A DNA stretch of 64,000 nucleotides. It comes from Faecalibacterium prausnitzii (GTDB taxonomy: Bacteria > Bacillota > Clostridia > Oscillospirales > Ruminococcaceae). The DNA is taken from positions 62,001 through 126,000 of the forward strand of contig NZ_PXUP01000008.1 in assembly GCF_003324185.1 (NCBI RefSeq), written 5' to 3'. This document shows positions 8,514 through 17,394 of this stretch, in pieces. Each line of letters opens with the position of its first letter. The first letter of the stretch is position 1. Below the pieces are notes generated by a model, which was given only the letters and a program-made list of their open reading frames with translations, made no database searches and was not told the DNA's origin. The position numbers and the translations under genes were made by a program.

Positions 8514-9449
8514 TTATTTCTCGTGTTTTACTCGTTGGATATCTCCCAGATCGTAGGGGGTATTCTGGTAGACGTAATAGTTCAGCCAGTTTTCATACAG
8601 CAGGTGGGCGTGGGCGCGCCAGCGGAACAGCGGCGGCTTTGCGGGGTCGTCATCCGGGTAATAGTTGACGGGCACATGGATGGGCAGACCCTTGGCTACG
8701 TCCCGCTTATACTCGGCATCCAGCGTATACTTATCGTACTCCGGGTGACCGGTAACAAAGATCTGCCGCCCGTTCTCGGTGCTCATGAGGAAGGGTCCGG
8801 CGGCGTCGCTCTCGGCCAGAATGCGCAGTGCGGCGCAGTTGTCCACATCCTCCCGGCAGATGCCGGTATGACGGCTGTGGGGAGCGTAGAACACCTCATC
8901 AAAGCCGCGTACAAGCGGGTTTGCCGGGCGGGTGACCCGGTGCTCGAACACGCCGAACATCTTTTCCGGCAGCAGCTGCTTGCGCACGCCGTAGTGGTAG
9001 TACAGCCCGGCCTGTGCGCCCCAGCAGACATGGAGGGTGGAGTAGACGTTCGTTTCGCTGAAGTCCATGATCTCGCACAGTTCGTTCCAGTAGTCCACCT
9101 GCTCAAAATCCATGGTCTCCACCGGCGCGCCGGTGATGATCATGCCATCGTAGCGGTTGTTCTTTACCTCGTCAAAGGTCTTGTAAAAGGCCTCAAGGTG
9201 GGCAGCCGACACATGGGTGGCAGAGTGGCTGGCAGTTTGCAGCAGGGTCATGTGCACCTGCAGCGGGGTGTTTGCCAGCAGCCGGGCGATCTGGGTCTCG
9301 GTGGCGATCTTGGTGGGCATCAGGTTCAGAATCAGAATTTCCAGCGGACGGATATGCTGCGCCAGCGCCCGCTCCCGGTGCATGACAAAGACGTTTTCTT
9401 CATACAGGGCGTCAAAGGCGGGTAAGGTCTTAGGGATGATCAGCGGCAT
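8514..9449 (-). CDS. metA: Homoserine O-acetyltransferase (MetA fold)
   Basis: A 311-residue class I glutamine-amidotransferase-like enzyme that acylates homoserine in methionine synthesis. The catalytic Cys142 lies in [15 protein letters not shown], and His235 and Glu237 lie in GHPEYD. Residue 111 is Glu (GAPVETMDF). In characterised MetA proteins this marks acetyl-CoA rather than succinyl-CoA use, which fits the O-acetylhomoserine sulfhydrylase next door. The start at 9449 follows AAGGAGCG. It is the last gene of the T-box-metQ-metN-metI-metY-metA operon, 96 nt after metY. Confidence 0.95.
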
Positions 9450-9545
9450 AGGAAAGTCGCTCCTTTGCTAGACGATTCAAAAATGGCGCCGCGTTCGCTT
9501 TGCCATCTTCAGGGGTATCATGATTTTTGATTTCACGGGAAGGCA

Positions 9546-10820
9546 TCAGACCTTATCCAGTGCCTGCGCGATATCGGCGATGAGATCCTCGGCGGATTCC
9601 AGACCGCAGCTCATGCGCACCAGCTCAGCGGGCACACCGGCGGCAGCCAGCTGCTCGTCGTTCATCTGACGGTGGGTGCTGGAGGCGGGGTTCAGGCAGC
9701 AGGTGCGGGCATCCGCCACATGGGTCTCAATGGCGGCAAGCTTCAGCTCCTTCATAAAGGTGCTGGCGGCCTGACGTCCGCCGGCCAGACCAAAGCTCAC
9801 CACGCCGCAACTGCCGTTTGGCAGATACTTCTGCGCCAGTGCGTGGTAGGGGCTGCTTTCCAGCCCGCAGTAGTTCACATAGGCCACCTTGGGGTGGTTT
9901 TCCAAGAACTGTGCCACCGCCATGCCGTTGGCGCAGTGGCGCTGCATCCGAACGTGCAGGCTTTCCAGACCAAGGTTCAGCATATAGGCGTTCATGGGGG
10001 ACTGCATGGAGCCGAAGTCCCGCATGAGCTGCGCGGTAGCCTTTGTAATGAAAGCTCCCTCCTTGCCGAAGCGCTCGGCGTAGGTGATGCCGTGGTAGCT
10101 GTCGTCCGGGGTGCACAGACCCGGGAACTTCTCAGCGTGCGCCATCCAGTCGAACTTGCCGCCGTCCACGATGGCACCGCCCAGCACTGCGCCGTGGCCG
10201 TCCATGTACTTGGTGGTGGAGTGGGTCACGATGTCCGCGCCCCACTCAAAGGGGCGGCAGTTGACCGGTGTGGGGAAGGTGTTGTCCACCATCAGCGGCA
10301 CGCCGTGGGCGTGGGCGGCCTTGGCAAACTTTTCAATGTCCAGCACGGTCAGGGCGGGGTTTGCGATGGTCTCGCCGAACACCACCTTGGTGTTGGGCCG
10401 GAAGGCGGCGTTCAGCTCCTCCTCGGTGCACAGGGGGTCTACAAAGGTGGCGGTGATGCCCATCTTGGCCATGGTGACCGAGATGAGGTTGAAGGTGCCG
10501 CCGTAGATGGTGCTGGAGGCCACGATGTGGTCCCCTGCTTCGCAGATATTAAACAGCGCAAAGAAGTTTGCGGCCTGTCCGCTGGAGGTAAGCATGGCGG
10601 CAGTGCCGCCCTCCAACTCGCAGATCTTTTTGGCTACCATGTCGCAGGTGGGGTTCTGCAGACGGGAATAGAAATAGCCGTCTGCTTCCAAATCGAACAG
10701 CTTGCCCATGTCCTCGCTGGTGGCGTACTTGAAGGTGGTGGACTGGATGATGGGGATCTGACGGGGCTCGCCATTGCCGGGGGTGTAGCCACCCTGCACA
10801 CAGATGGTATCACGGTTCAT
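9546..10820 (-). CDS. metY: O-acetylhomoserine sulfhydrylase (MetY), copy 1
   Basis: A 424-residue fold-type I PLP enzyme of the Cys/Met metabolism family. It would combine O-acetylhomoserine with sulfide to give homocysteine. The Schiff-base lysine is Lys204 in HSTTKYMDGHG. Other family landmarks are the N-terminal IPIIQSTTF, YSRLQNPT, LTSSGQAA and the C-terminal LNPASSTHRQM. Length and landmarks suit MetY more than MetB/MetC. It lies between metI and metA in the T-box operon, with a long intercistronic hairpin upstream. A second, clearly different MetY is at 28314-29603. Confidence 0.93.
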   Translation of the reverse strand: MNRDTICVQGGYTPGNGEPRQIPIIQSTTFKYATSEDMGKLFDLEADGYFYSRLQNPTCDMVAKKICELEGGTAAMLTSSGQAANFFALFNICEAGDHIVASSTIYGGTFNLISVTMAKMGITATFVDPLCTEEELNAAFRPNTKVVFGETIANPALTVLDIEKFAKAAHAHGVPLMVDNTFPTPVNCRPFEWGADIVTHSTTKYMDGHGAVLGGAIVDGGKFDWMAHAEKFPGLCTPDDSYHGITYAERFGKEGAFITKATAQLMRDFGSMQSPMNAYMLNLGLESLHVRMQRHCANGMAVAQFLENHPKVAYVNYCGLESSPYHALAQKYLPNGSCGVVSFGLAGGRQAASTFMKELKLAAIETHVADARTCCLNPASSTHRQMNDEQLAAAGVPAELVRMSCGLESAEDLIADIAQALDKV

Positions 10821-10859
10821 ACAACATACTCCTTTGCTGGTTTTTTGGTCGGGAAGGAC

Positions 10860-10895
10860 GATTCCCCGCAGGAGAGCTGTCTCCGGCGGGGAATC
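10860..10895 (-). other. Intercistronic hairpin between metI and metY
   Basis: GATTCCCCGC pairs with GCGGGGAATC, with further pairing inside. There is no U-run after it, so it is more likely an mRNA-stability or processing hairpin than a terminator. Confidence 0.5.
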
Positions 10896-10911
10896 GAAAA
10901 TTCAAAGCTTC

Positions 10912-11568
10912 TTATTTCCGCAGGCGCTTATCGCTCTTGGTGGCCCACAGGGTACCCACAGACTGGAACGCCTGCACCATCAGCACCAGCAGCACCACAC
11001 AGACGATCATGATGTTGGTCTGGTAGCGGTAGTAGCCGTAGGACAAGGCGATCTTGCCCAGACCGCCGCCGCCGATGACGCCGGACATGGCGGAATAGCC
11101 CAGAATGGTGGTCAGCGCGGTGGTCATACTGGAGATCAGGCCAGGCAGGCACTCCGGGATCATGACCTTGGTGATGATCTGGAAGGGGGTCGCGCCCATG
11201 CTCTGGGCAGCTTCCACTACGCCTTCATCCAGCTCCCGCAGGCTGGTCTCCACTAGACGTGCCACAAAGGGGAAGGCGGCGACCACCAGCGGCACTACGG
11301 TGGCCTTGGTGCCCACCGTAGTGCCCACGATGGCGCGGGTAAGCGGGAACACGCAGATCATCAAAATCAGGAAGGGCACGCTGCGCAGGATGTTGATGAC
11401 GATATTGATCAGATGCATCAGCCAGCCGGGCAGGGGCAGAATGCCGTCCTTGTCACCGGCTACCAGCAGCACGCCCAGCGGCAGACCCAGCACCAGCGCA
11501 AAGGCGGTGGAGAGCACCGTTACATAAAAGGTCTCCCAGATGGCAAAGCCGTAATCTGCGATATTCAT
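10912..11568 (-). CDS. metI: Methionine ABC transporter permease MetI
   Basis: A 218-residue inner-membrane permease of the methionine importer. Five or so hydrophobic segments are visible. The EAA-type coupling loop (VVEAAQSMGATPFQIITKVMIPECLPGL) docks on MetN. The start at 11568 overlaps the metN stop by 4 nt (ATGA on the minus strand) and follows GGAGGTGACC. The length matches MetI. Order metQ-metN-metI is conserved apart from metQ leading. Confidence 0.95.
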   Translation of the reverse strand: MNIADYGFAIWETFYVTVLSTAFALVLGLPLGVLLVAGDKDGILPLPGWLMHLINIVINILRSVPFLILMICVFPLTRAIVGTTVGTKATVVPLVVAAFPFVARLVETSLRELDEGVVEAAQSMGATPFQIITKVMIPECLPGLISSMTTALTTILGYSAMSGVIGGGGLGKIALSYGYYRYQTNIMIVCVVLLVLMVQAFQSVGTLWATKSDKRLRK

Positions 11569-12578
11569 ATACCGGTCACCTCCTCTACCGTTACGCCAGA
11601 CTGGCTGCGCATATATTCCATAGCCTGCTGTGCGACAGCAAGCTCTGCGGGCAGCTTGAGCAGCATAGAGCCGTAGCACTGGCCGCTCAGATCGCGGGTA
11701 TCGGCGCTGAGCACCGACACCAGAATGCCTTTTTCGGCAGCAAGGCTTGCCACCAGCGGCTTTGCGGTGGAGGAACCATTAAAGGTAACGCGCACCACAT
11801 GGTCATCCGGCGCAAAACAGGAAAGATCCCGCGCTGCGCTGCCGCCGTTGGGCGCCACCAGACGCTTGGCAGCTGCCGTTTTGGGATTTGCAAAAATTTC
11901 CTGTACCGAGCCCTGTTCCACGACCACACCGCCGTCCAGAATAGCCACGCTGTCGCAGATTTCCTCCACCACGCTCATCTGGTGGGTAATGACCACCACG
12001 GTGATGCCCAGCTTACGGTTGATATCCTTGATCAGGGTCAGGATGGAGTGGGTGGTGTTGGGGTCCAGCGCACTGGTGGCCTCGTCGCACAGCAGCACCT
12101 TAGGGTTGGTAGCCAATGCACGGGCAATGGCGATGCGCTGCTTCTGACCGCCGGACAGCTGTGCCGGGTAGGCGTTGGCCTTATCCGGCAGTCCCACCAT
12201 CTCCAGCAGCTCCATGGCGCGCTTTTCCGCCTCGGCCTTTTTTACGCCTGCCAGCTCCATGGGGAAGCAGACATTCTTCAGGCAGGTGCGCTGCATGAGC
12301 AGGTTGAACTGCTGGAAGATCATGGTGATTTCCCGGCGGCGCTTGCGCAGCGAGACGGGAGACAAGGTCTCCATTGCCACGCCGTCGATCACCACGCTGC
12401 CGCCGGTGGGGCGCTCCAACAGGTTGATGCAACGCACCAGCGTGGATTTGCCCGCACCGGACATACCGATGATGCCGTAGATGGAGCCATCGGGAATGGT
12501 GAGGTTGATGTTCTGCAGCGCTTTCACCGCGCCATCCTTCATCTGGAAGGTCTTGGAAAGATACTTGAGTTCGATCAC
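11565..12578 (-). CDS. metN: Methionine ABC transporter ATP-binding protein MetN
   Basis: A 337-residue ATPase. Walker A is GMSGAGKST near residue 40, the signature is LSGGQKQR, and Walker B is VLLCDEATSALD. Residues from about 255 on form the NIL domain, which binds methionine and gives trans-inhibition of the importer. The start is a GTG at 12578, with AAAGGAG 8-9 nt upstream. It overlaps metI by 4 nt at its 3' end, so the two are translationally coupled. Confidence 0.96.
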   Translation of the reverse strand: MIELKYLSKTFQMKDGAVKALQNINLTIPDGSIYGIIGMSGAGKSTLVRCINLLERPTGGSVVIDGVAMETLSPVSLRKRRREITMIFQQFNLLMQRTCLKNVCFPMELAGVKKAEAEKRAMELLEMVGLPDKANAYPAQLSGGQKQRIAIARALATNPKVLLCDEATSALDPNTTHSILTLIKDINRKLGITVVVITHQMSVVEEICDSVAILDGGVVVEQGSVQEIFANPKTAAAKRLVAPNGGSAARDLSCFAPDDHVVRVTFNGSSTAKPLVASLAAEKGILVSVLSADTRDLSGQCYGSMLLKLPAELAVAQQAMEYMRSQSGVTVEEVTGI

Positions 12579-12592
12579 AGAAATTGCTCCTT

Positions 12593-12628
12593 TAGCTTAT
12601 CCCTCGATGGTAGATTATCCCTCGATGG
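12593..12628. repeat. 18-bp tandem duplication spanning the metQ stop codon
   Basis: The unit TAGCTTATCCCTCGATGG (12593-12610) is followed at once by TAGATTATCCCTCGATGG (12611-12628), a single base apart. On the coding strand each copy reads ...IEG-stop, so the last three codons and the stop of metQ are duplicated. Confidence 0.85.
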
Positions 12629-13529
12629 GTGCCAGACTGTCCTGCTTGCCGCCGTAGACGCCCATGGGCTCTACGTGAATACCGGCAACAGATACCAGAT
12701 GGGTACCCTTTTCGGCGTTGAAGTTGTCCAGATACGGCTGATGCTGGAAGTAGTTGGTGTCTACCTGACCGTCCTCGACGATCTGGTTGGGGATCACATA
12801 GTCGTCGTACTCCTGGATGTCCAGCGTGATGCCCTTGGCGGCAAGGATCTCCTTGCACACCTCCAGCACCTCGCAGTGGGGAGCGGGAGTAGCGGCGCAG
12901 CTGACGGTCTGGCCGTTCAGAGCGTCATAATCCACAGTGGAATCATAGCCGTCGGTGGGGTTCTCCACAACGGACACCACGGAGCCCTTGTAAGTTTCGT
13001 CCATGAAGTCCTTCACCTTCTGGCTCTGCAGGGCAGCAGCCAGAGCCTTGATCTTAGGCTCCTCCTGATTGCCGTCCTTGCACACCAGAATGTTGACGTA
13101 AGCAGAAGAGCCGTCCTCCATGGCCAGTGCATCGGTCATGGGGTTCAGACCGGCAGAGATGGCGTAGTTGGAGTTGATGACGGCGTAGTCCTCGTCCTGC
13201 AGGACGTTGGGCACCTGAGCGGCCTCCACCTCGTCCACGGTGACGTTCAGGGGGTTCTCCTCGATGTCGTTCTTGGTGGCGGTCAGGCCGGCATCTGCCT
13301 TCAGCTTGAAGAAGCCGTTCTTCTCCAGCAGGGTCAGGGCGCGGGCCTCATTGGTGGTATCGTTGGGCACAGCCACCTTGATCTTATCCAGCTTAGCTGC
13401 GGCAGAGGATGCCACGCTGCCGGATGCAGCGGCGGAAGAAGCAGTGGAAGAAGAACCACCGCAGGCAGTCAGGGCAGCGGCTGCGGCTGCCACACCGGTA
13501 ACTTTCAGAAAATCGCGACGAGTAATCAT
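12615..13529 (-). CDS. metQ: Methionine-binding lipoprotein MetQ with circularly permuted lobe order
   Basis: A 304-residue solute-binding lipoprotein for the MetNI importer. ITRRDFLK and the lipobox ending at Cys23 give export and anchoring, followed by a Ser/Ala linker. In NLPA/MetQ proteins the order is: PHAEIL..FQHxPYL..HxEPMGxY, then AVAIPNDPTNExRAL..AAVINxNYA. Here the order is reversed. AVPNDTTNEARAL is at 53-65 and AVINSNYA at 116-123, while TPAPHCEVLEV is at 214-224, NYFQHQPYL at 259-267 and HVEPMGVY at 285-292. The protein ends at the point where the canonical chain would continue into AxVAIPND. All recognisable blocks are present, so this looks functional rather than broken. It is the first gene of the operon, directly behind the T-box. 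Confidence 0.9.
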   Translation of the reverse strand: MITRRDFLKVTGVAAAAAALTACGGSSSTASSAAASGSVASSAAAKLDKIKVAVPNDTTNEARALTLLEKNGFFKLKADAGLTATKNDIEENPLNVTVDEVEAAQVPNVLQDEDYAVINSNYAISAGLNPMTDALAMEDGSSAYVNILVCKDGNQEEPKIKALAAALQSQKVKDFMDETYKGSVVSVVENPTDGYDSTVDYDALNGQTVSCAATPAPHCEVLEVCKEILAAKGITLDIQEYDDYVIPNQIVEDGQVDTNYFQHQPYLDNFNAEKGTHLVSVAGIHVEPMGVYGGKQDSLAPIEG

Positions 13530-13607
13530 AGTTTTGTTCCCTCTCTATTGTTCTCTATTATGTACTGCGACCCGCACGGCACCTTTCCGCGCGCGGCCTT
13601 GAACGGA

Positions 13608-13922
13608 TGAATGAAAAAATGCCCCCGTCCTTACGAGCCTTAGACTCTGCAAGGACGGAGGCATGAACATACTTCCGTGGTACCACCTTGGTTCACTGTA
13701 TCCTTACGGATACAGCCTCGATGCTGCGGCAGCGTGTACTGCTTACAGCCGGACGCTGTAACGGGCGCATCCCGTTGCGGGCTTAGCACTCCTGCGCCTC
13801 GTCCGCACGGCTCCGAGACCATTTTCAGCTTCCTGTTTCCTGCCCTTTTCCACCGCCCGGGCTCTCTGGTAAGGATCAATGCGAAGGCCTACTCTTCTCT
13901 TCACAGCCATTTTTGTGATATT
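13608..13922 (-). promoter_or_regulatory. T-box leader (tRNA-Met type) of the metQNI-metY-metA operon
   Basis: The minus strand carries the T-box sequence AAGGTGGTACCACGG (13675-13690). After it comes a terminator in which GCCTCCGTCCTT pairs with AAGGACGGGGGC and ends in TTTTTT (13612-13662). The candidate specifier region reads CTGAAAATGG. An ATG (Met) codon at 13822-13820 fits the operon, though a shifted register (AAT) cannot be excluded by eye. Uncharged tRNA-Met would prevent termination. Confidence 0.88.
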
Positions 13923-13928
13923 GACACT

Positions 13929-13957
13929 ATAATAAACCCATCGGCGGCATTTGTCAA
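13929..13957 (-). promoter_or_regulatory. Promoter of the methionine T-box operon
   Basis: On the minus strand TTGACA (13957-13952), a 17-nt spacer, and TATTAT (13934-13929). Confidence 0.8.
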
Positions 13958-14019
13958 CACCTTCAACGAAGTTTTTGGGTAGGGATATGGCTTCCGGCCT
14001 TTTGCCGCGCCCGTTTTGC

Positions 14020-14048
14020 TTGACAATGCGCACAAAAAGGGTTATACT
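14020..14048 (+). promoter_or_regulatory. Strong promoter of a short plus-strand RNA
   Basis: TTGACA (14020-14025), a 17-nt spacer, and TATACT (14043-14048). No plus-strand gene follows before the terminator at 14116. Confidence 0.8.
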
Positions 14049-14054
14049 ATAACT

Positions 14055-14153
14055 ACAAAAGGCACTGCGACAAGCGGTTGGCCCTTTAGGTTTTTAGTTT
14101 AACTTTTATCCAAAGAAAAACCGTCACCTGTGGGGGGTGGCGGTTTTTACTTT
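14055..14153 (+). ncRNA. Putative small RNA, convergent to the 20-aa peptide gene
   Basis: About 100 nt lie between a near-consensus promoter and a strong terminator, with no open frame that has a ribosome site. The 5' part contains GGCACTGC and GCGGTTGGCCCT. Nearly the same words (GGTACTGC, GCGGTTGGCTCT) occur in the 5' leader of the peptide mRNA read on the opposite strand. The 3' end overlaps the end of the peptide mRNA in the shared terminator. This is the architecture of a type I antitoxin, but the function is inferred only. Confidence 0.6.
14116..14148. terminator. Bidirectional terminator shared by the small RNA and the peptide gene
   Basis: AAAAACCGTCACC pairs with GGTGGCGGTTTTT. Both strands end in a U-rich run. 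The stop codon of the 20-aa peptide lies in the stem's right edge. Confidence 0.85.
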
Positions 14154-14209
14154 CTTACCTTGATCGTAAACGTAAATCCAAACAAGTGGAATGTCAAAGT
14201 AATAGGCAT
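14147..14209 (-). CDS. 20-residue cationic beta-patterned peptide, candidate type I toxin
   Basis: The peptide MPITLTFHLFGFTFTIKVRK has alternating hydrophobic and polar residues and a basic tail. The ATG at 14209 follows a near-perfect AAGGAGGTGAG site. It has its own consensus promoter 80 nt upstream, a small 5' hairpin and a 10-bp hairpin that buries the ribosome site. It ends in a terminator shared with a convergent small RNA. No annotated family is recognised. It is not the alpha-helical membrane type of Fst or TxpA. The gene features are directly visible; toxicity is inference from the layout. Confidence 0.65.
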   Translation of the reverse strand: MPITLTFHLFGFTFTIKVRK

Positions 14210-14211
14210 GT

Positions 14212-14235
14212 TCTCACCTCCTTCCGGAAGTGAGA
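14212..14235 (-). promoter_or_regulatory. Hairpin sequestering the ribosome site of the 20-aa peptide
   Basis: In the mRNA UCUCACUUCC (14235-14226) pairs over ten positions with GGAGGUGAGA (14221-14212) around a GGAA loop. The whole Shine-Dalgarno sequence is inside the stem. Confidence 0.75.
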
Positions 14236-14290
14236 GCCAACCGCCTGCCGTATGTGCAGTACCTTTCGATCGCTTTTCAGCGACAGGATG

Positions 14291-14319
14291 ATTATAACAT
14301 ATTCCGACCCTTTTCGCAA
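14291..14319 (-). promoter_or_regulatory. Promoter of the 20-aa peptide gene
   Basis: On the minus strand TTGCGA (14319-14314), a 17-nt spacer, and TATAAT (14296-14291). A TCGCT/AGCGA hairpin (14270-14283) would form at the very 5' end of the transcript. Confidence 0.75.
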
Positions 14320-14320
14320 G

Positions 14321-14350
14321 AAAGCTCTGGTGTTTCCAGAGCTTTTTATT
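14321..14350 (+). terminator. Terminator isolating the peptide locus from thrE
   Basis: AAAGCTCTGG pairs with CCAGAGCTTT, then TTTATT. It would stop plus-strand read-through before the thrE promoter. Confidence 0.65.
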
Positions 14351-14358
14351 ATACGCCC

Positions 14359-14387
14359 TTGTATGCGGCTGGTGCACATGATAAAAT
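14359..14387 (+). promoter_or_regulatory. Promoter of the split thrE genes
   Basis: TTGTAT (14359-14364), a 17-nt spacer, and TAAAAT (14382-14387). Confidence 0.55.
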
Positions 14388-14418
14388 AGGGTATCATCTT
14401 TTGCAAGGAGAGCAGGCA

Positions 14419-15210
14419 ATGAACAGCAGAGACCCTTTTCCCGATGAAGAGCTGCGCCGCCGCATCATGGATTTTATCATGGCCGCAGGGCAGACCCTGC
14501 TGGAAAACGGCGCGGAGGTGTTCCGGGTGGAGCAGACCATGGAGATCATGGCGCGCAGCTTCCATTTGCGGGAGTTCCACGTTTATGTGCTGACCAACGG
14601 CATTTTTGCCAGTGCCGGCACTGCCGAGATCAGCGAGGTGCGCAACGTACCGGTGCGCACCACCCATCTGGGGCGGGTGGCGGCGGTGAACGAGCTTTCC
14701 CGCCAGATCGCCCAGACCGGGATGACCTTGGATGAAGCCGAGAGCCGTCTGGTGCTGGCGCGGCAGCTGCCCTTCCCCAAAGATCACGTGCAGCTGCTGT
14801 CCGGGCTGTGCGGGGCGTTCTGCTTTGCCATGATGTTCGGCGGCAACCTGCGCAGTGCACTGGCAGCTGCCGGGGCGGGACTGGTGGCCAGCTGGTATCT
14901 GCTGTGGTGCGGGCGGCATGAAGTGCCCGGCGGCTTCCAGAAGATCAGCACCGCCGCGCTGATCACGCTGGTGTGCATTCTGCTGTGCAATCTGCTGCAC
15001 ACTTCTGCAAGCCACGCCATCATCGGTACGCTGATGATTTTGACCCCGGGCATCGCCTTTACCATGGGCATCCGGGACTTTGTGCAGGGCGACTACCTTT
15101 CCGGCACCATCCGCATGATCGACGCTTTGCTCATTGCCGCCAGCATTGCCATAGGCACCGGCCTTGTACTGCGGCTGTACACGGTATTTACGGGGGTGGT
15201 CGTGGTATGA
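14419..15210 (+). CDS. Threonine/serine exporter, ThrE N-terminal subunit (DUF1212 type)
   Basis: A 263-residue membrane protein. Residues 1-120 are the cytoplasmic domain with GQTLLENGAEVFRVEQTM, and about five membrane segments follow. In Firmicutes ThrE is often split into this large subunit and a short second one, as here. Substrate (Thr, Ser or related) is inferred from the family. The start at 14419 follows AAGGAGAG. The stop overlaps the second subunit (ATGA). Confidence 0.88.
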   Translation: MNSRDPFPDEELRRRIMDFIMAAGQTLLENGAEVFRVEQTMEIMARSFHLREFHVYVLTNGIFASAGTAEISEVRNVPVRTTHLGRVAAVNELSRQIAQTGMTLDEAESRLVLARQLPFPKDHVQLLSGLCGAFCFAMMFGGNLRSALAAAGAGLVASWYLLWCGRHEVPGGFQKISTAALITLVCILLCNLLHTSASHAIIGTLMILTPGIAFTMGIRDFVQGDYLSGTIRMIDALLIAASIAIGTGLVLRLYTVFTGVVVV

Positions 15211-15656
15211 TGTCCCTTACTGCTGCACAACTCAGCGAGCTGACGGCGCAGTTTTTTCTGGCCGGGCTGGGCACGCTGAGTTTTGCCATTCTGTTTGCGT
15301 GCCCCCGGCGCTGCCTGCCTTACTGCGCACTGGTGGGTGCTGTGGGCTGGCTGTGGTATGAACTGCTGACCCTGCTGGGCGCAGACGCCGCCACGGCCTC
15401 CCTGCTGGCGGTCATTCCGCTGACCATCCTTACCCGCGTGTTTGCCATCACCCAAAAAACGCCGGTCACGGTGTTTTTGCTGACCGGCATTTTCCCGCTT
15501 GTGCCGGGCGCGGGCATCTACTACACCGCCTACTACTTCATCCAGAACGAAAACGCCCTTGCCCTTGCCAAGGGCATCAGCACCTTTAAAATTGCGGTGG
15601 CGCTGGCTATCGGCATCAGTCTGGTGCTGTGCGTGCCGCTGCCGAAGAGGAAGTAA
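15207..15656 (+). CDS. Threonine/serine exporter, ThrE C-terminal subunit (DUF3815 type)
   Basis: A 149-residue protein with four or so membrane segments, and the conserved TGIFPLVPGAGIYYTAYYFI block. It is the short half of the split ThrE exporter and is translationally coupled to the large half by a 4-nt overlap. Two adjacent ATGs are possible starts; the first gives the overlap. No transcription terminator follows directly. A dispersed palindromic repeat does. Confidence 0.88.
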   Translation: MMSLTAAQLSELTAQFFLAGLGTLSFAILFACPRRCLPYCALVGAVGWLWYELLTLLGADAATASLLAVIPLTILTRVFAITQKTPVTVFLLTGIFPLVPGAGIYYTAYYFIQNENALALAKGISTFKIAVALAIGISLVLCVPLPKRK

Positions 15657-15668
15657 GACGGCGTTTTA

Positions 15669-15852
15669 CCCCCTCAGTCACGCCTGACGGCGTGCCAGCT
15701 CCCCCAAGGGGACGCCTTTGGGCTATGCCGGAAACTTTACCGCCGCTGCGAAAGCCGTCCCCTTGAGGGCTGACTTCCCCCGGCCGGGGGAAGATGTCGC
15801 GTAGCGACAAAAGGGGGAGTGTGGCAAAGCCGCAGGCTTTGACGGAAGGGGC
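15669..15852. repeat. Dispersed palindromic repeat, copy A
   Basis: It begins CCCTCAGTCACGCC, then GCCAGCTCCCCCAAGGGG. An internal GTCCCCTTGAGGGCTGAC follows, and it ends with GGGGGAGTGTGGC and GAAGGGGC. The ends are inverted, and variable short hairpins sit at the same relative places as in copies B, C and D. There is no coding capacity. It fills most of the 300-nt gap between thrE and the minus-strand lipoprotein. Confidence 0.8.
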
Positions 15853-15891
15853 TGCACGCTGCTGGAAAAGCGGTAGAACTGACTATAAGCA

Positions 15892-15930
15892 CAAAAAAGG
15901 ACGGCAGTCATACGACTGCCGTCCTTTCTA
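15892..15930 (-). terminator. Terminator of the lipoprotein gene
   Basis: On the minus strand GGACGGCAGTC pairs with GACTGCCGTCC, followed by a run of U. Confidence 0.85.
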
Positions 15931-15955
15931 TCGTCACGCAACGAGTATTCTACAA

Positions 15956-16534
15956 TCACACGTGCTGAATTGCAAACATCATATCAGCGCTGATGGGATA
16001 ATCCACATCTGCCTCATATGCACCCGGGAAAAACTCATAGCCCTCAGGCAGTTTGATCTGACCAATGCGAATAGTAGTTGCATCCTTGGCAACAGTGACC
16101 TTAACAATCTTCTTAGGGTCTTCGCCCAGAGTCGGGTTCGTCACATGCAACGTGACTTCAACTTCCTTGGTAGCGTAGGTCACATCAGTCACAAAGACGA
16201 TGATGTACTCGCCCTTAGAGGCATCCTTGCGAATCTCGACGACTGCCTTTTCGTTCTCCAGATGGTAACCTTCGGGCAACAGCTTCTTATCGATGTCAGC
16301 AACCTTCACAGAGTCCTCGGTCTTCAGAACATCAATCTTGGCAGTCTCACCCACAACCACGGTCTCGCCATTGCCTTTGTCTGCCATAAAGATGACCATC
16401 ACAGGACGAGTGGTCACTTCAGGAATCACAGGAACATCCTCCTTGGAGCAGCCAGCCAGCACGCCAGCAGCAGCAACAGCCAGAGTAGCGACACCTGCGC
16501 CCTTCAGGAACTGACGACGAGAGATATTAGACAT
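15956..16534 (-). CDS. Lipoprotein with internally repeated beta domain, function unknown
   Basis: The product is 192 residues. SNISRRQFLKG plus a hydrophobic segment and the lipobox LAGC give a twin-arginine-like lipoprotein signal. The mature part is Val/Lys/Glu-rich and beta-like. The element LPEGYHLEN near the middle recurs as LPEGYEFF near the end, suggesting two related strands or half-domains. The start at 16534 is preferred because it places the signal at the N-terminus and a GAGG lies 9 nt upstream. No known family is recognised. It lies alone between terminators and a divergent nitroreductase. Confidence 0.7.
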   Translation of the reverse strand: MSNISRRQFLKGAGVATLAVAAAGVLAGCSKEDVPVIPEVTTRPVMVIFMADKGNGETVVVGETAKIDVLKTEDSVKVADIDKKLLPEGYHLENEKAVVEIRKDASKGEYIIVFVTDVTYATKEVEVTLHVTNPTLGEDPKKIVKVTVAKDATTIRIGQIKLPEGYEFFPGAYEADVDYPISADMMFAIQHV

Positions 16535-16735
16535 AATAATCAACCTCACAATCTTTCTTTCAAGCACGCCTTACACTGCATGTAATGCGTTTACACCTAT
16601 ATAATACCTTTACCTACCCCCCATTGTCAAGTATTTCATGGAAACATTCACCAAAAAAATACAAGGATACAAGAATAAGTGTCACTATCCTTTACAATAC
16701 AGCCGCCGTATCCGCAAAAAACCACGCCGCAGCCA

Positions 16736-16764
16736 TTGCTGTGCGCCGGTGCATCTGTTATACT
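16736..16764 (+). promoter_or_regulatory. Promoter of the nitroreductase gene
   Basis: TTGCTG (16736-16741), a 17-nt spacer, and TATACT (16759-16764) with an upstream TG. Confidence 0.65.
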
Positions 16765-16818
16765 TTATATATAGTTTTTTCCGTTTTTGTATTTTACCGG
16801 ATAAAGGAGCGATTTATA

Positions 16819-17394
16819 ATGTCTGTTATGGAACTTCTGACCGCCCGCCGCACCTACCGCCGGTTTGCCCAAAAGGCCGTGCCGCAGGATGTGGTGGACG
16901 ATATCGTACAGGCCGTGCGACTGTCCTCCTGCGGGGCAAACCGGCAGGCGGTGCGTCTGGTGCTGGTGCAAAGCCCGGAGATGGTGGCCAAGGTACAGCC
17001 GCTGGTCAAATGGGCTGGCTATCTGCCGCCAGAGCAGGGCACGCCCAAGGCGGACGAGCTGCCCACCTTTTATGCAGCTGTGGTGCAGGATACCGCCATC
17101 CCCGGCGACCTTGCCACCGACACCGGCATTGCGCTGGCAAACATGACCCTTGCCGCATGGGACAAGGGCGTGGGCAGCTGCATCATGGGCGCAATCAATA
17201 AGCCCGCCCTGACCGCGCTGCTGGGCATCGAGGAGCCGCAGAAGCTGGCCTTTATGGTGGCTTTTGGCTACCCCACCCACAAAGCCCGCATCGTCCCCAT
17301 GACCGAGCAGACCGGTGTAAAGTACTATCTGGACGAAAACCGCGACTACTGCGTTCCTAAGCGCAGCGCGGAGGAGATCGCAAGAAGCCTGTAA
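16819..17394 (+). CDS. Nitroreductase family protein
   Basis: A 191-residue FMN-dependent nitroreductase-fold protein. MELLTARRTYRRFAQKAVP is the usual opening with the phosphate-binding Arg-Arg. NMTLAAWDKGVGSCIMGAI is the conserved dimer/flavin-contact block, followed by FMVAFGYP. These enzymes reduce nitro, quinone or related substrates with NAD(P)H; the natural substrate is unknown. The start at 16819 follows AAAGGAG and gives the normal family N-terminus. The longer upstream frame has no support. It is monocistronic. Confidence 0.9.
   Translation: MSVMELLTARRTYRRFAQKAVPQDVVDDIVQAVRLSSCGANRQAVRLVLVQSPEMVAKVQPLVKWAGYLPPEQGTPKADELPTFYAAVVQDTAIPGDLATDTGIALANMTLAAWDKGVGSCIMGAINKPALTALLGIEEPQKLAFMVAFGYPTHKARIVPMTEQTGVKYYLDENRDYCVPKRSAEEIARSL

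Follow-up and report, generated by a model that had tools for sequence, protein, structure and literature searches.

The question raised by this locus is whether a methionine-binding lipoprotein can be encoded with its two halves in swapped order and, if so, what such a protein does and how it arose. The window analysed here is a stretch of 64,000 nucleotides from Faecalibacterium prausnitzii (contig NZ_PXUP01000008.1, positions 62,001 to 126,000). A first-pass annotation of this DNA proposed that the open reading frame at 12615-13529 encodes a circularly permuted MetQ. It did not give the strand; the frame lies on the minus strand. The features of the locus are listed in Table 1.

Table 1. 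Features of the permuted metQ locus (positions are those of the window)
Feature	Position	Strand	Evidence
metQ, circularly permuted, 304 aa, ATG start	12615-13529	minus	ORF call, PF03180 matches, motif positions
Signal peptide, residues 1-22, Tat-like ITRRDFLK; lipobox Cys is residue 23	13464-13529	minus	TAT_signal PF10518
Canonical second half, residues 50-186 (profile about 97-234); R63, N119/N121, N146	12972-13382	minus	PF03180, alignment
Linker, residues 187-205, old C-terminus to old N-terminus	12915-12971	minus	Linker HMM
Canonical first half, residues 206-304 (profile about 3-100); Y244, F261, H263, Y266	12618-12914	minus	PF03180, alignment
metN, ABC ATPase with NIL domain, 337 aa	11565-12578	minus	ABC_tran 124.3 bits, NIL 58.6 bits
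metI, permease	10912-11679	minus	BPD_transp_1 71.9 bits
Cys/Met metabolism PLP enzyme, downstream neighbour	9546-10820	minus	PF01053 404.8 bits
T-box leader (RF00230-like), AUG (Met) specifier, GGTGGTACC box, terminator-like hairpin	13648-13913	minus	RF00230

The protein matches the MetQ/NLPA family PF03180 with 249.1 bits in total (cut-off 27), in two stretches that together cover profile positions 3-234. Residues 49-186 correspond to profile positions 97-234, and the second stretch, downstream on the same strand, corresponds to positions 3-100. The collinear order of the profile thus fails for the natural protein and is restored once the halves are reordered: with the second piece moved to the front, a check proposed in the annotation, residues 6-236 match positions 3-234 in a single stretch (266.1 bits). 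The alignment with the best-matching solved structure, 4ib2, a canonical relative, agrees, query residues 205-302 corresponding to 9-106 and residues 51-185 to 111-249. The five motif blocks from which the swapped order was first read each occur once, at residues 53-65, 116-123, 215-224, 259-267 and 285-292. Chance or mis-framing is ruled out by these PF03180 matches, by the reordered match and by the plus-strand reading of 12615-13529, which matches no Pfam family at E-values up to 1. Family matches, the reordered match, the predicted fold and the relatives described below all speak for a true circular permutation of MetQ; the rearrangement is neither a loss nor a duplication. The chain of MetQ runs from lobe 1 to lobe 2 and back to lobe 1, and the new ends fit a position at the first crossover between the lobes.

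The NCBIfam MetQ models score below their cut-offs (TIGR00363: 159.4 bits, cut-off 228.85; NF008285: 163.3 bits, cut-off 374). Because the reordered protein (175.6 and 178.2 bits, respectively) and a canonical relative, L059 (178.7 and 186.7 bits), also fall short, this reflects divergence and not permutation. Judged by its sequence, the protein is filed as a permuted variant, homologous but out of order, and not as an ordinary PF03180 member.

The permuted metQ is the only PF03180 gene in the source genome and is 99% identical to the Faecalibacterium loci L032 and L033. A search of related genomes, also proposed in the first-pass annotation, found a match in 30 of 31 genomes of the genus (8 of the 31 being single-contig assemblies), and the order is permuted in all 30. 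Among 33 loci with named records, it is permuted in 22/22 from Faecalibacterium and in Enteroscipio rubneri (L053; Actinomycetota), and canonical in the other ten. In wider genome sets, which overlap, mostly contain the source genome or Enteroscipio and may miss weak permuted genes, full-length permuted genes were found in at least 23 of the 118 genomes with a match in the source organism's own family (297 searched), in at least 31 of 122 in its order (394 searched), at least 18 of 171 in its class (391 searched) and at least 3 of 206 in its phylum (378 searched). The corresponding counts are at least 12 of 119 in the order of Enteroscipio (197 searched) and at least 1 of 29 in its phylum (246 searched). 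One further gene, of the clade D type described below, was found in each of the own order (G825), the own class (G1150) and the order of Enteroscipio (G410).

The recurrence of the order in every matched genus genome, single-contig assemblies included, and in other families and another phylum makes an assembly or annotation artefact scarcely conceivable; nothing supports one, G028 alone having a frame break in the gene. Assembly error in particular is excluded by the genus genomes together with the 22 Faecalibacterium loci. The permutation is genus-wide, occurs also in other Clostridia and in Coriobacteriia, and is not particular to one locus.

Among the matches listed, the permuted gene is the sole profile match in 23/23 permuted genomes of the family, 31/31 of the order (G825 apart) and 18/18 of the class (G1150 apart). 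The exceptions are G012 and G410, each with an additional canonical gene, and G384, which has two permuted genes. The second NLPA protein of G012, a Faecalibacterium, is L003, which is divergent, in canonical order and without most of the methionine pocket residues. It is akin to L064 of Siminovitchia and probably binds another ligand.

Of the 285 ORFs with half-profile matches in the fetched loci, where one gene may recur in several loci, 176 have the second half first, 107 have the first half first and 2 have the second half only. Without near-copies there are 62 permuted and 89 canonical proteins, a ratio that is no frequency, the canonical loci having been hand-chosen from search matches. 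In G028, a single-contig genus genome (L093 / L031), a frame break in the first part of the permuted metQ divides the gene.

Several features of the locus bear on function. The signal sequence matches TAT_signal (PF10518) with 29.2 bits (cut-off 22.7), and the lipoprotein signal noted earlier was recovered as a loose lipobox pattern, which is present in 62/62 non-redundant permuted proteins. An RRxFLK signal of twin-arginine type occurs in 7 of these 62, all from Faecalibacterium. TatC is encoded in the same genome as the MetQ with the Tat-like signal, and a nearby ORF (15956-16567) bears a similar twin-arginine-type signal, as judged by eye. Pfam and NCBIfam matches place metN and metI after metQ on the same strand, bearing out the proposed metQNI operon. 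The best NCBIfam match of metN is TIGR02314 (MetN; 370.9 bits, under the cut-off of 499.7) and that of metI is NF008049 (MetI; 205.4 bits, cut-off 212); the true metI start is probably nearer 11568. In other Faecalibacterium loci that extend far enough, the gene for the Cys/Met PLP enzyme again lies downstream. In loci of at least 5 kb, metN is present in 88 of the 92 locus rows with a permuted gene, among which one gene may recur, and absent in L040, L127, L152 and L221.

The leader upstream of metQ matches the whole RF00230 model (84.2 bits, E-value: 1.1e-18) and is named T-box-like because the gathering score of 93 is unreached. At gathering score, no Rfam family matches in positions 9000-17000 of the window, and 15 further loci gave five tRNAs only. 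In 8/8 aligned Faecalibacterium leaders the specifier-bearing GAAAATGG stretch and the AGGTGGTACCACGG box are identical, and the AUG specifier and the GGTGGTACC box are constant, with a terminator-like hairpin after them (specifier and hairpin identified by eye). The leader is thus predicted to work like a T-box and, since its specifier is AUG, uncharged tRNA-Met probably turns the operon on.

The ligand pocket is conserved. In N. meningitidis MetQ, methionine is contacted by R156, N213 and N238 on one domain and by Y81, F98, H100 and Y103 on the other (PMC6739813). By motif and spacing, the former map to R63, N119 or N121, and N146 of the permuted protein, and the latter to Y244, F261, H263 and Y266. 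All are invariant in 24/24 aligned permuted proteins of clades A-C (see below), including both N119 and N121, the alternative equivalents of N213. The equivalents in E. coli MetQ are Y69, F86, H88, Y91, R144, N202 and N229, the last of which is a binding-site residue (PMC12357092).

AlphaFold2, run on the permuted alignment and in permuted order, gave the structure prediction that the annotation had recommended, with a mean pLDDT of 94.7 and a pTM of 0.87. MetQ structures occupy the top Foldseek ranks. The 26 MetQ/NLPA chains among the 50 matches listed align over 78-152 columns of the 255-residue model (TMq at most 0.44); such half-length alignments are what a sequential aligner would be expected to give with swapped order. 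Other binding proteins and HisG-like folds align loosely over about 200-310 columns, with rmsd values mostly of 6-9.5.

The permuted protein is homologous over its full length to canonical MetQ/NLPA proteins (PF03180; E. coli MetQ 4yah, R. gnavus 4ib2, T. pallidum Tp32 1xs5). It shares their pocket residues, their lipoprotein nature and MetN and MetI as partners, and differs from them in the order of the halves, in the position of the termini and lipid anchor and in having an added linker. We put at about 85% the probability that the permutation lies at the first lobe crossover and that the product serves a MetNIQ ABC importer as its functional methionine-binding lipoprotein. Methionine would be bound between the two lobes as in MetQ, and the protein would dock on MetNI and deliver it. 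It is improbable that the permuted protein has been repurposed, either for another ligand or for a surface lipoprotein role only. Its methionine binding is deduced from sequence, and a second role at the surface has been proposed for N. meningitidis MetQ (PMC8416018), but the invariant pocket residues, the Met T-box-like leader upstream, the adjoining metN and metI and the status of the permuted gene as the genome's sole MetQ all argue against such a change.

For a permuted MetQ that works as the methionine-binding protein, the path of the chain may be pictured as follows. With the new N-terminus at the first crossover, the chain would pass through lobe 2 first and then lobe 1, with a single crossing between them and one hinge strand lost. 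After the crossing it would run through the old C-terminus and the short linker into the old N-terminus, and would end at the hinge, past the thioether-binding residues Y244, F261, H263 and Y266. Going by the MetQ topology, the hinge would contain one covalent strand versus two in canonical MetQ, and the lipid anchor would depart from the hinge or the second lobe and not from the first lobe. The split of the contact residues between the halves agrees with the lobe 1-2-1 path of MetQ. The shift of the anchor is unlikely to be neutral, because the N-terminal lipid matters for the association of other MetQs with MetNI (PMC8416018).

Canonical MetQ proteins are of the Type II fold class, and permutation has already been described in a binding protein of another type. 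Tp0684 (MglB-2) of Treponema pallidum and relatives, classed as 'Type Ic / Cluster Bc', is a naturally permuted substrate-binding lipoprotein, and Gram-positive bacteria, often gut commensals, have related proteins (PMC4990184). It is a Type I glucose-binding protein whose C-terminus holds strands of one lobe found at the N-terminus in E. coli MglB; the moved strands add a fourth hinge crossover, the moved part is poorly conserved, and the authors of that study suggest that membrane anchoring may be linked to the topology (PMC4990184). The MetQ permutation differs in that it lies at a crossover, cutting the chain at a hinge crossing where that of Tp0684 adds one, in that both parts are well conserved and in that it seems to have been repeated. 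The protein falls outside Type Ic / Cluster Bc, being a PF03180 protein with MetQ as its best structure matches. No permuted MetQ or NlpA was found in a literature search that covered subscription journals thinly, in accord with the first-pass annotation, which knew of none. To the extent of these sources, permuted binding proteins were already known and a permuted MetQ appears to be new.

To how many events the permutation traces was examined with trees in which the permuted halves were returned to canonical order. Near-copies (over 93% or over 88% alike, depending on the set) and the broken G028 gene were removed beforehand. Clade labels A, B and C were assigned after viewing the 89-row tree, and the set of all permuted proteins was fixed by half order. 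The 89-row tree used every row; the 85-row analyses are without L129, L130, L003 and L064; a third tree left out L129, L130, L223, L003, L064 and the copies of L003. From the 117-row and half trees L241 and L245 were also left out, and clade A was thinned to 16 of its 43 rows. A hand-picked 47-row test comprised 10 of the 59 A-C rows, all three D rows and 34 canonical rows.

Clade A includes the source gene and has members in its own family, order and class. Clade B belongs to the same family (genera g9, g21, g26, g48 and g59) and clade C to the order of Enteroscipio, in the Coriobacteriia. Clade D consists of L129:3994-4917, L130:3912-4835 and L223:3050-4120, from genomes of different groups (G410, G825 and G1150). 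The clade D proteins are divergent, with at most 70% mutual likeness and linkers of 26-29 residues, and are closest to the E. coli type.

In the 117-row tree, A (100/99) has as its sister group four canonical proteins from its own family (99/92). B is nested in a canonical group from that family (97/84), and C is found among the canonical proteins of the order it comes from (100/96). The starred branches of this tree force three changes of order, and those of the 89-row and third trees force two; a single change was found in 0/200 bootstrap trees in each case. The starred branches of the half trees force two changes for the first half and one for the second. Both half trees keep A and B whole, by which a chimera of two binding proteins was rejected. 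They also both place the Enteroscipio MetQ with canonical proteins of its own order, starred in the first-half tree only. Canonical rows break up C, and forcing C together costs nothing (p = 0.525, 85 rows). In the 47-row tree D groups with E. coli MetQ (99/98).

Several origins of the permutation appear fairly likely on these sequence comparisons, with separate permutations probable in A, B, C and D; the better supported part is a division into two origins, A-C versus D. The estimate is tempered by the sister of A, which depends on the choice of rows: the L059/L160/L159 group adjoins A in the 117-row trees, the position is unresolved in the third tree, and in the 47-row tree the same group lies closer to B (88/90). 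Gene order and a short sequence difference are compatible with separate origins. Among the 63 locus rows of clade A, metN comes after metQ in 60 (the other three lack metN), and metN precedes metQ in 13/13 B rows and 12/13 C rows (one without metN), with D mixed. A four-residue stretch near residue 141 is absent in all clade A rows and present in B, C and 84/89 canonical rows, as counted by eye.

A single permutation event, its product then inherited vertically and passed on horizontally and canonical order regained in some lineages, is unlikely by comparison. A single clade of A, B and C is left standing by AU tests (p = 0.077 for 85 rows and 0.21 for 117 rows), the cut point is common to all three, B and C both have the gene order metN-metI-metQ, and the varying sister of A is also consistent with one event. 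Of the pairs, an A+C clade gives p = 0.035 with 85 rows versus 0.28 with 117 rows, a B+C clade gives p = 0.265 with 85 rows, and one quick tree of 85 rows placed A and B together with a support of 23. Against a single event, one clade of all permuted proteins including D, with E. coli MetQ in the test set, was rejected (AU p = 0.0077, 47 hand-picked rows; the long branch of D, 1.23, is a possible source of bias). The starred positions of A, B and C beside or among different canonical proteins, metQ standing first in A and last in B and C, and the four-residue stretch missing from A alone of the three likewise speak against it, and a reversal to canonical order would have to repeat the same rare steps.

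The linker offers a trace of how at least one of these permutations may have occurred. When an HMM of the clade A linker was compared with 89 canonical N-termini, L059, L158 and L160 scored 31.0, 29.9 and 27.0 bits, respectively; the next best canonical protein scored -0.1 bits and the best of 17,800 shuffles 7.3 bits. All three belong to the sister group of A in the 117-row tree (99/92). These scores indicate homology between the linker of clade A and the mature N-terminal spacer of these three canonical relatives. Permutation by duplication is a model in which such a relic is left (PMC3320104), and the homology is therefore the relic expected from duplication, fusion and trimming. The same trace would remain had a permuted gene reverted to canonical order. 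Among the same 89 N-termini, the clade B and C linkers match no canonical spacer beyond the level of shuffles. A resemblance by eye between the linker of L100 (clade C) and the spacer of canonical L057 was discarded, the clade C profile giving 3.4 bits (E-value: 0.9). Because the B and C linkers match no canonical spacer, evidence for the duplication route is confined to clade A, where the linker points to it.

In the proposed route for clade A, metQ would have been duplicated in tandem, the two copies would have fused in frame with the N-terminal spacer of the second kept as the linker, and the outer halves would then have been lost. The saposin/swaposin case has the same proposed route (PMC3320104), in unrelated proteins. 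Tandem canonical metQ pairs occur at five of the fetched loci (L295, L296, L298, L300 and L301), the copies ranging from a one-base overlap to 72 nt apart. Their junction has the order of the permuted protein, the second half of copy 1 followed by the first half of copy 2, but they are two separate genes, each canonical. At the tandem junction of G1692 the permuted profile matches across (281.5 bits) with a stop codon within; G1692 was considered as a fused double MetQ, but a stop separates its two copies and it is a tandem pair. No fused double MetQ intermediate was found among the 285 ORFs with half-matches. In some tandem pairs one copy has altered pocket residues. A 579-residue ORF (L297:1446-3185) combines a C-terminal canonical MetQ with an N-terminal part that resembles, by eye, an amino-acid binding protein.

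The lobes could instead have become separate genes by fission and been rejoined in opposite order, which is a general model for permutations (PMC3320104), but we consider this very improbable. The first half alone was seen in 0 of the 285 half-match ORFs and the second half alone in two, both pieces of the broken G028 gene, a count limited to loci fetched by MetQ matches; duplication, in addition, directly predicts a linker homologous to a canonical N-terminal spacer, as in clade A.

Duplication and trimming, then, is the route favoured for clade A, which keeps a trace of how permutation happens in the old leader spacer that would now serve as its linker; tandem gene pairs are still seen in other bacteria. 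Family annotation hides such rearrangements because the whole-protein Pfam score appears normal. A broader reading, tentative and short of even odds, is that gut anaerobes of clades A-D have permuted MetQ independently at the same lobe crossover at least three to four times, by duplication and trimming, and have kept the result for its hinge-sited anchor and single-strand lobe link, which would make a differently gated binding protein. If the permutation is recurrent, it provides matched pairs of canonical and permuted proteins with the same pocket and the same kind of transporter, sometimes in the same bacterial family. Such pairs would allow the roles of the hinge strands and of anchor position in ABC import to be addressed.
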